In this document: positions 13,977 through 16,212 of the stretch, one piece after another
How positions within the stretch are numbered: the first letter of the stretch is position 1
Layout of the letters: the number at the start of each line of letters is the position of its first letter
DNA from: Bdellovibrio reynosensis
GTDB lineage: Bacteria; Bdellovibrionota; Bdellovibrionia; Bdellovibrionales; Bdellovibrionaceae
Direction: 5' to 3'
DNA length: 64,000 bases
NCBI RefSeq assembly: GCF_022814725.1
Contig: NZ_CP093442.1
Span: 3,224,001 to 3,288,000 of the forward strand
Notes under the pieces: model-generated
Database searches by the model: none
What the model saw: the letters and a program-made list of their open reading frames with translations, nothing else
What the model was told of the DNA's origin: nothing
Position numbers and translations under genes: made by a program

Positions 13977-14723
13977 ATGAAGAAGCTCGTTTTACAACTC
14001 ATCTTTGGATTTATCATTTTACCTGGGACCCTTGCTGGCACTCTTTACTATTTAAATAAAAATGGTTTCTTTAATATCTCTAAGATCGAAGTGGTTTTAG
14101 AAAATCCCACGCCAGGCCAAGAGCAATTCTTAAAGCCGAAGGTGGATGAAGTTGAAGAAGGTTTAAAAAAATACAAAGGTCTATCTTTGTGGAACATTAA
14201 ACTTAAAAAAATCTCTCGAGAAATCTCAGCGAATAACTGGGTGGACGGTTTAAATATCAAACGCAGTTGGCCTTCAACGCTGCAAGTGCGCTTGCGCCCT
14301 CACGAGGTAAAACTTCTGTTTCTAACAAAGACTGGAAAACTTGTTCCTATTATAAAAGACGGAAGCTTTTTAAATCCTGTTGATGCAAAACAAGCTCCAG
14401 ATGTTGCTTTGCTTGAAGGAGAAACTTTCGTTAAAAAATCCGCGCTTAGAAAAAAAGCTGTGGATGTGATTGAACAAATTCCTGCTGAAGGATCGTTCAG
14501 TAAAAAAACAATTTCTGAAATTCGTCACGACAACAAAGAAGGTTTTTGGATGACTCTGATTAAGTCAGGCATTCAAGTGAAAATGGGTGAAGATCAAGTG
14601 GCACTAAAGGCTGCACGAGTTTCACAAGTTGTCGACTATCTTGATTCCCGCCAATTTGACGCGCGCGTCATAGACGCGAATCTGTCAAAGAAAGTCCTTG
14701 TCAGGTTGCGTAAGGATCCCTAA
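13977..14723 (+). CDS. ftsQ: Cell division protein FtsQ
   Basis: Bitopic inner-membrane divisome protein that links FtsB/L and the septal synthases. Features are a short cytoplasmic start (MKK), one transmembrane segment (about residues 4-26, LVLQLIFGFIILPGTLAGTLYYL), and then a POTRA domain beginning FFNISKIEVVLENP with GLSLWNIKLKKISREISANNWV. The family-typical IKRSWPSTLQVRLRPHEV (about 99-116) follows, and then the FtsQ beta domain. Its 248 residues are near the usual size. Identification rests on this topology plus its position before ftsA and ftsZ, because FtsQ sequences diverge strongly. An aaagga lies upstream of the ATG. Confidence 0.88.
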   Translation: MKKLVLQLIFGFIILPGTLAGTLYYLNKNGFFNISKIEVVLENPTPGQEQFLKPKVDEVEEGLKKYKGLSLWNIKLKKISREISANNWVDGLNIKRSWPSTLQVRLRPHEVKLLFLTKTGKLVPIIKDGSFLNPVDAKQAPDVALLEGETFVKKSALRKKAVDVIEQIPAEGSFSKKTISEIRHDNKEGFWMTLIKSGIQVKMGEDQVALKAARVSQVVDYLDSRQFDARVIDANLSKKVLVRLRKDP

Positions 14724-14742
14724 GCTTAAGTCTGGAGGACAG

Positions 14743-14793
14743 ATCAAAGTCGGGTCGAGCCGCCTTTGATAGCTCTTAAAATGATTTTAAGAG
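14743..14793 (+). repeat. Two short hairpins at the start of the ftsQ-ftsA gap
   Basis: Stem atcaaag (14743-14749) pairs with ctttgat (14764-14770) around a GC-rich loop. Three bases later, ctcttaaaa (14773-14781) pairs perfectly with ttttaagag (14785-14793) around tga. Neither is followed by a T run, so they are not classical terminators. Confidence 0.65.
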
Positions 14794-14808
14794 GTCCTCA
14801 ACTTACTA

Positions 14809-14934
14809 AAGGTAAGTCAAAAAGTATCAGCCGCAAGGCGGAGGTGAGTCCCCGCAGCGGAGGTGTGGCAGCGCCACATCGGAGCGAGGAGACCCGCCGA
14901 CAACGCAGTCGGATGATGCTTTTTCACTTACCTT
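14809..14934 (+). other. Large multibranched inverted-repeat element between ftsQ and ftsA
   Basis: Arms 14809-14829 and 14914-14934 form a 21-position stem with one C-C mismatch and one G-U pair. The enclosed 84 bases are GC-rich, unlike the flanks. They fold by eye into several hairpins: gcc-gcaa-ggc (14830-14839, a GNRA loop), ccg-cag-cgg (14852-14860), tgtggc-agc-gccaca (14864-14878) and ccgac-aacgca-gtcgg (14897-14912). It ends 24 bases before the ftsA ATG. It could be a structured leader RNA for ftsA-ftsZ or a dispersed extragenic repeat; the sequence alone does not decide. Confidence 0.75.
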
Positions 14935-14958
14935 ACAGGCATCCGCGAGGACTTAAGG

Positions 14959-16212
14959 ATGAGTACATCAAACAGACCGAAAGTACCGGTATTGGCTGGA
15001 TTGGACATTGGTTCCACTAAAGTTTCGTTCGTAATCGGAACAGTCAATCCCGACGGTAAATTAGAAGTGGCAGGAGTAGGCACAGCTCCAAACACCGGCA
15101 TTCGCCAAGGTGTTGTCGTTAATATTGAAGCCACAACTGAATCCATCAAAAAAGCTAAAGAAGAAGCAGAATTAATGTCAGGCTATTCCATCTCTGAAGT
15201 ATGGGTTGGAGTTGCTGGTACACATATCTCTTCATTTGATTCCAAAGGCATGGTTGCAATTAAAAATCGCGAAGTCACAGCTTCAGAAATTGAGCGCGTG
15301 ATTGAAGCAGCTAAAGCTGTCGCTGTTCCTGCGGATCGTACAGTTCTGCACGTTCTTCCAAGAGAATTCAAAGTCGATGGTCAAGACGGCATCACCGATC
15401 CAATCGGAATGTCAGGCATTCGTTTAGAGGCGAATGTGCACATCGTGACTGGCAGCCAAAGTGCTATCAACAATTCAGTTAAATGCGTAGAAAAAGCAGG
15501 CTTGAAAGTAGCGGGCTTGGTTCTTAACCAACTGGCTTCTGCAACAGCGGTTATTTCTAATGACGAAAAAAATCTGGGCGTGAGTGTTGTCGACATGGGT
15601 GGCGGCGCTTGTAACGCTCTTTATTTCGTGAATGGCAGTGTGGCGCACTCTTCAACAATTCCAGTGGGTGGCCAACACTTTACTCATGATGTGGCTGTGG
15701 GTCTTCGTACTCCGCAGTTCGCAGCTGAGGATCTAAAAAAGAAGCATGGTTGTGCCATGGCTTCTATGGTGAATGAAAACGAAACAATCGAAGTCGAAGG
15801 CGTGGGCGGACGTAAGGCGCGCGTGATTCCACGTAAAGATCTTGCGGATGTGATTGAAGCCCGTGCCGAGGAGACTATGAACTTGGTGGCTAATGATCTT
15901 CGCATGAGCGGTCTTATGCCAATGCTTGGCTCAGGCATCGTTCTTACAGGTGGTGCAAGCCAGCTGGATGGTCTTGTCGAAATGGGTGAGTTTATTTTTG
16001 ATATTCCAGTTCGCAGAGGTGCGCCTCGTGAAATTGGTGGCCTGACTGATGTAGTGAAGTCTGGAGAATTCTCTGCAGCGGTCGGTCTCTTGTTACATGC
16101 ATTGGGGCAAAGAAAAGATTTGCATCAAGGCAACCAGCAAGAAGTGAACATTGGCGAATCGCTTGATGGCATCACTAAGAAGATCAAAGATTTTTTTGGA
16201 CAGATTTTTTAA
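14959..16212 (+). CDS. ftsA: Cell division protein FtsA
   Basis: Actin-like ATPase that tethers FtsZ to the inner membrane. The phosphate-1 motif GLDIGSTKVSF is at about residues 14-24. The 1C-domain region follows, then VVDMGGGACNALYF (phosphate 2) and GSGIVLTGGASQLDG (adenosine motif). The C-terminus KKIKDFFGQIF is the short amphipathic membrane-targeting helix expected of FtsA. It has 417 residues, a normal size. A gagg about seven bases before ATG supports the start. It lies 64 bases upstream of ftsZ and downstream of the structured element, so any regulation by that element would affect both genes. Confidence 0.97.
   Translation: MSTSNRPKVPVLAGLDIGSTKVSFVIGTVNPDGKLEVAGVGTAPNTGIRQGVVVNIEATTESIKKAKEEAELMSGYSISEVWVGVAGTHISSFDSKGMVAIKNREVTASEIERVIEAAKAVAVPADRTVLHVLPREFKVDGQDGITDPIGMSGIRLEANVHIVTGSQSAINNSVKCVEKAGLKVAGLVLNQLASATAVISNDEKNLGVSVVDMGGGACNALYFVNGSVAHSSTIPVGGQHFTHDVAVGLRTPQFAAEDLKKKHGCAMASMVNENETIEVEGVGGRKARVIPRKDLADVIEARAEETMNLVANDLRMSGLMPMLGSGIVLTGGASQLDGLVEMGEFIFDIPVRRGAPREIGGLTDVVKSGEFSAAVGLLLHALGQRKDLHQGNQQEVNIGESLDGITKKIKDFFGQIF

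Follow-up and report, generated by a model that had tools for sequence, protein, structure and literature searches.

A dispersed, shape-conserved hairpin repeat of Bdellovibrio, with one copy between ftsQ and ftsA

The gap between ftsQ (13977–14723) and ftsA (14959–16212) in the window, that is, the whole 64 kb stretch of Bdellovibrio reynosensis DNA analysed here, contains an inverted repeat at 14809–14934, and Pfam matches identify the genes around it as those of FtsQ, FtsA and FtsZ. The question raised by this locus is whether the repeat controls the division genes, as a leader or attenuator, or is a dispersed repeat that happens to lie among them; a sequence-only reading had named both possibilities.

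Fold and dispersal of the repeat

That reading had proposed a 21-position terminal stem with one mismatch and one G-U pair, enclosing 84 bases and ending 24 bases before ftsA. All of this was borne out: the stem pairs 14809–14829 with 14914–14934, the mismatch is C·C and the wobble pair U·G, 84 bases are enclosed, and 24 separate the end of the repeat (14934) from the ATG of ftsA at 14959. Folded alone, the repeat reached −62.0 kcal/mol (z −6.6), a value far outside chance: 200 dinucleotide shuffles gave −37.4 ± 3.75 kcal/mol, and 0/200 folded as stably. The description of the enclosed bases as multibranched, with several small hairpins, did not hold, because the minimum-energy fold and the consensus over 27 copies are both a single long unbranched hairpin, the consensus having 0 branch points and being broken by purine-rich internal loops. 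A GNRA hairpin suggested within it (GCC-GCAA-GGC) is no more than an alternative local pairing within one of the conserved motifs of the internal loops. A kink-turn was also considered for the internal loops and set aside, as the bulge lies, by eye, on the wrong side of the G·A pairs.

A covariance model, R1, among whose 27 source rows the ftsQ–ftsA copy itself stands, matched the whole element at 14806–14938 on the + strand (model positions 1–134; 132.9 bits, E 1.8e-32 in the window), and this was its sole match within the 64 kb. From the outside inwards, and all on the + strand, the copy has an outer stem, AAGGTAAGT (14809–14817) with ACTTACCTT (14926–14934), that varies between copies with its pairing kept, and then a second stem with an A-run in its 5′ arm, AAAAAGTATCA (14819–14829), and a T-run in its 3′ arm, TGATGCTTTTT (14914–14924), the AAAA/UUUU pairs being invariant in 61/61 distinct copies from three other genomes. 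Next come the purine-rich internal-loop motif CAAGGCGGAGG (14834–14845), the alignment columns of which are invariant, and the apical hairpin GGTGTGGC-AGC-GCCACATC (14862–14880), with a G·U pair that is nearly invariant across the family. The 3′ side carries two further motifs conserved in the alignment of copies, GGAGCGAGGAGACC (14881–14894), opposite the other internal-loop strand, and GCCGACAACGCAGTCG (14896–14911).

A search of the repeat's own genome (G000) with its DNA gave 40 scored places, nearly all matching within 14817–14926 of the window. Model R1 was built from an alignment, A1, of 27 of the first 30 copies, leaving out one near-duplicate and two copies with an extra hairpin, and it found 79 places at E ≤ 0.01 in the 3.58 Mb of G000, among the best 140–150 candidates scored, these matches being in part self-matches. 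With the best 140–150 candidates scored in each genome, 21 of the 24 Bdellovibrio genomes gave matches, between 2 and 78 per genome, and three congeners, G003, G004 and G028, gave none. Order-wide, under stricter filters and with the best 24 candidates taken per genome, a match at E ≤ 1e-4 occurred in 41/140 genomes and 16/65 genera. A strict exact pattern run against the GTDB collection found nine stretches, all Bdellovibrio by title and including B. bacteriovorus kdesi. The element is a dispersed repeat of Bdellovibrio of about 110–135 bp, and the suggestion that a dispersed repeat had landed at this site proved right. Because the hairpin between ftsQ and ftsA is one of some 79 scattered, shape-conserved copies, it is not a switch built for the division genes. 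The check that the earlier reading had proposed, paired changes at one site against scattered copies, did yield many scattered copies, but it separates the two possibilities poorly, as the dispersed copies covary strongly too.

No Rfam family fitted the repeat. Release 15, searched on both strands, gave no match at curated score in the 64 kb, and a permissive scan around the element gave a best E of 0.57, far under the curated scores. Carriage by phages was set aside, since 88 viral stretches fitted a loose pattern but R1 matched 0 of the 80 listed. Among the texts and titles covered in the open PMC library, none dealt with a Bdellovibrio dispersed hairpin repeat of this kind, and the main text of a B. 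bacteriovorus transcriptome paper (PMC3627812) uses neither ‘repeat’ nor ‘repetitive’ in the passages covered.

Several copies have an altered structure. In G000, a second palindromic repeat, of the CACAAAAATGCCAT.ATGGCATTTTTGCG type, lies inside the hairpin or at its 3′ part at 650554, 1699952 and 2524768; the copies at 590850 and 1367805 (L020 and L024) are variants that branch, because their 3′ internal loop bears one more hairpin; and those at 666219, 1032462, 1662079, 1833229, 3198440, 3211140 and 3333083 are shortened, the hairpin top being gone and the lower stems still paired. Head-to-tail tandem copies, 125–146 bp apart, were seen at ten places in G020 and at 3041522/3041651 in G012, where the second unit is without its own 5′ outer arm.

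Conserved shape, folding strand and changes between sister species

The copies share a shape more than a sequence. In A1, 95.3% of cells were paired and both sides had changed at 30 of the 40 pairs, values as high being found in 0/500 shuffles; when the partner was shifted by 1–3 columns as a control, pairing fell to 37–45%. The 61 distinct copies of G002, G006 and G022, which are outside the model, had 96.1% of cells paired and 27 of 40 pairs changed on both sides, in an alignment that was fitted to R1 and so leans to it. Sequence is fixed in the centre of the element, namely in the purine-rich motifs CAAGGCGGAGG, in the loop strands around GCGGAGG / CGGAGCGAGGA, and in CAACGCAGTC, and it is the ends that vary between copies. 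The AAAA/UUUU of the second stem is fixed in one subfamily; 26 of the 69 longer G000 copies have the A/U run broken (GCGAGAA type), and TTTT near the 3′ end is found in 40/69.

Stem cells in the 79 own-genome copies (set A2, from which four reverse-strand duplicates had been removed before counting) comprised 2514 Watson–Crick pairs, 251 G·T, 15 A·C and 173 others, and the strand bearing GGAGG folds to a lower energy than its complement in 64/66 copies. The great excess of G·T over A·C, together with the better fold, therefore indicates that the GGAGG strand is the strand selected to fold, whether as RNA or as single-stranded DNA.

In three sister species, 25 pairs of same-site copies were compared, with flanks mostly 87–98% identical, drawn from part of the copies of each genome (28/33 in G002, 17/30 in G006 and 17/29 in G022). 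The elements were 93–100% identical in 14 of the 25 pairs and 81–90% identical in the other 11, the latter near the level of unrelated copies (background 0.78). In seven of eight site groups inspected, the changes clustered in one or two stems, as blocks in one arm matched by blocks in the other, with the core motifs kept and the outer stem mostly kept; the L364/L031 pair differs in the outer stem as well. Over the 25 site pairs, which are non-independent, 56 pair changes were on both sides, 24 were on one side and still paired, and 25 left the position unpaired. One-step template switching or conversion between copies could explain such matched arm changes, and template switching is described as keeping RNA stems paired (PMC8794818, in part). 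The matched arm swaps are natural examples of paired stems changing on both sides at once.

Gene ends and the direction of replication

Sites were also compared in other congeners. The ftsQ–ftsA site was without the element in all nine of the congeners read there, these being the ones matched by the upstream part, or the end, of the gap. At the 3′ end of tpiA the own genome carries an element and the site was empty in 13/13 congeners, with as little as 4 nt separating the two convergent stop codons. Since both sites are empty in relatives, the copies were either gained in the own lineage or lost many times. We rejected the idea that the outer stem is a remnant of a palindromic target, there being no such hairpin at the empty tpiA sites, although some relatives have a short inverted repeat at the ftsQ–ftsA site, which makes the rejection less clear-cut there. 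For 8 of 68 G000 copies, one of the 59 copies sampled in distant species occupies the corresponding site, and in 22 cross-species site pairs with flanks below 88% the elements resembled each other no more than background (0.80, against 0.78).

The copies are intergenic, 0/78 lying inside a called gene (by a simple gene caller; one further copy was without usable context). With genes on both sides in 76 cases, 34 were between convergent, 35 between tandem and seven between divergent genes, and in 41/78 a gene of the opposite strand has its stop codon −18 to +9 nt from the 3′ end of the match. In G000, with replication borders near 0.7 and 2.5 Mb by the GC skew of 16 stretches, placed after the strands of the copies had been seen, the GGAGG strand was in lagging orientation for 71/79 copies, which places it on the leading-strand template. 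Taking the origin to be at the record start, the values elsewhere were 31/33 (G002), 27/29 (G022), 44/44 (G020) and 26/27 (G012), giving 199/212 copies in the five genomes together, a count in which the shared-site copies of G002 and G022 are non-independent. Long open frames were only about 65% leading, summed over the sampled G000 stretches, and 33 of the 34 copies between convergent gene pairs kept the replication polarity; gene direction therefore does not explain it. The ftsQ–ftsA copy is an exception, running in the same direction as ftsQ and ftsA.

To our knowledge, few dispersed bacterial repeats keep their direction to replication so strictly. Precedents are Tn7, IS200/IS605 (PMC5371812, in part) and attC sites (PMC11023631, in part). 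As this culturable predator has tens of independent copies in each genome, it can be tested directly whether the polarity comes from insertion coupled to the fork, from loss of wrongly oriented copies or from function.

The account that we favour, though with confidence only a little above even, is that the repeat is a dispersed mobile element, non-autonomous and recognised in a folded, single-stranded form, its GGAGG strand being mostly on the leading-strand template. Copies would spread, or be exchanged, through the folded single strand, probably as single-stranded DNA and less likely as RNA, and recognition would be by shape and loop motifs, by an enzyme that none of the candidates considered here fitted. 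The orientation might arise by insertion coupled to the fork, or by loss of those copies whose folding strand sits on the exposed lagging-strand template, and both arms of a stem would be renewed at once, template switching or conversion from one copy to another being the likeliest route. At ftsQ–ftsA, a copy would have arrived in the own lineage in the minority orientation, so that a transcript of ftsQ and ftsA would include its folding strand. Counting against this account are the lack of a found enzyme, the fact that neither a clear target duplication nor exact ends were seen at the copies, and the 14/25 near-identical site pairs of the sister species, which also mean that many copies stay put for a long time; and the eight of 68 G000 copies at sites also occupied in distant species count against a purely random inserter.

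A different explanation is that the element is a functional gene-end module retained at its site, serving mainly as a transcription terminator for both directions or as a 3′ RNA structure that convergent genes share. Template-switch repair would then let its stems drift, with the A-run and U-run remaining fixed. An intrinsic terminator is a G+C-rich stem followed by a U-run, and the element resembles one in this respect, in many copies readable from both sides. The invariant AAAA/UUUU pairs in the 61 copies of three other genomes, the 34/76 copies between convergent genes and 41/78 close behind a stop codon, and the occupation of the same sites in sister species all suit such a module, as does the known capacity of template switching to keep RNA stems paired (PMC8794818, in part). 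However, the element differs from a terminator in its long conserved core, which terminators do not need, in the U-run that is broken in a large subfamily (26/69 longer G000 copies, with TTTT near the 3′ end in just 40/69), and in a polarity that tracks replication rather than genes; moreover, G003, G004 and G028 are without any match, and a terminator pattern scan found none of its type in the ftsQ–ftsA copy. We consider a gene-end module an unlikely explanation.

Candidate enzymes and likeness to known systems

If the element is mobile, as we favour, the short hairpin-forming repeats moved in trans by RAYT (Y1) transposases offer one close comparison. Like REPINs, the element is short, extragenic, hairpin-forming, present in many copies and non-autonomous, with compensatory arm changes (PMC3116915, in part). 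The own genome has one Y1/RAYT-like gene, and two of the ten Y1 transposase matches in G012 have a same-strand copy at a distance of up to about 500 nt. The distribution of Y1 genes does not, however, match that of the element, and we rejected RAYT/Y1 as the mover. Even at E 1, no Y1 match was found in G020 (44–45 copies), G026 (18) or G008 (4), while G003, G004 and G028 have Y1 genes and lack the element; the Y1 gene of the own genome has no copy within 1.5 kb, and among 20 stretches around Y1 genes in G002, G012, G022 and G024 a copy was present in three, all from G012. In addition, REPINs have two conserved inverted REPs at their ends and a variable middle, whereas the element has a conserved centre and variable ends, is long and unbranched with purine-rich internal loops, shows no link to a RAYT and, perhaps unlike REPINs, keeps a near-fixed orientation to replication. 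A REPIN-type element moved by a RAYT is thus very unlikely.

Two observations were made beside these genes. The RAYT genes of Bdellovibrio seem to be accompanied by AGGTACC-type repeats of their own (seen, with no count made), and a CATCACT-type tandem run lies just behind the RAYT-like gene of the own genome, by a flagellin-like reading frame (L092 896–1138; G000 near 1.958 Mb).

Lower still in probability is a cis-acting leader or attenuator specific to ftsA–ftsZ, to which the co-oriented position in the ftsQ–ftsA gap and the strong fold predicted in the mRNA would be suited, but the element is missing at this site in 9/9 relatives read and has 78 copies elsewhere in its own genome, so that this part of the sequence-only reading has to be given up. 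Least credible of all is an RNA spread by reverse transcription, through a trans-acting enzyme of the group II intron or retron-like kind: the G·U-rich, RNA-like covariation on one strand and the strand-biased placement would fit it, but reverse transcriptase (PF00078) was matched in 3/24 genus genomes and in none of the other 21, including G000 and G020 with the most copies, for which reason it was rejected as the mover, and introns insert into the lagging-strand template, the opposite of the element's polarity.

The attC sites of integrons lie at gene 3′ ends and have end boxes, R″ RYYYAAC and R′ GTTRRRY. Such boxes were present in 0/69 copies on either strand, and attC identity was rejected. 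The element nevertheless resembles attC in being a shape-conserved, sequence-variable hairpin with a folding strand that is complementary to the coding strand of the gene. This strand lies on the leading-strand template, and the same holds in sedentary chromosomal integrons, where attC inversion is harmful (PMC11023631, in part). The element differs in that its copies are dispersed singly behind core genes, tpiA among them, and do not form cassette arrays. Hairpin ends, single-strand mobility and orientation set by replication are features of IS200/IS605, the transposed strand of which prefers the lagging-strand template (PMC5371812, in part), whereas the folding strand of the element is on the leading-strand template; and G020 is without a Y1 match despite its 44 copies. 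The element may work somewhat like attC or IS200/IS605, and membership in either is not claimed.

What is new in the element is its central conservation, strict replication polarity and lack of a known mover. It is conceivable, though we put this forward with considerable doubt, that it represents a new class of mobile or recombination element, recognised by its shape as a single strand, with hairpins at gene ends, the folding strand kept genome-wide on the leading-strand template, stems rewritten in matched blocks around a fixed core, and an enzyme other than a RAYT or a reverse transcriptase, one for which attC boxes are not the signal.

A neighbouring leader candidate upstream of ftsA

The copy between ftsQ and ftsA would add a very stable hairpin of about 130 nt to the ftsQ–ftsA transcript, and an effect on ftsA expression is possible but would be incidental. 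A better candidate for a leader controlling ftsA is the neighbouring segment 14734–14797, predicted to fold as a three-way junction in the own genome and similarly in relatives. Its loop ATGATTTT is invariant in all ten Bdellovibrio species, with compensating stem changes by eye, and alongside it 14725–14732 pairs with 14950–14957. For the study of cell division in Bdellovibrio, a false lead at ftsA is thereby removed and a conserved leader candidate beside it pointed out.

A short upstream frame starting MIL, at 14781 in the window, is present in all ten species and has 8–14 codons in the nine relatives. In the own genome the element takes away the stop of this frame, which then extends to 79 codons and runs past the ftsA start in another frame.
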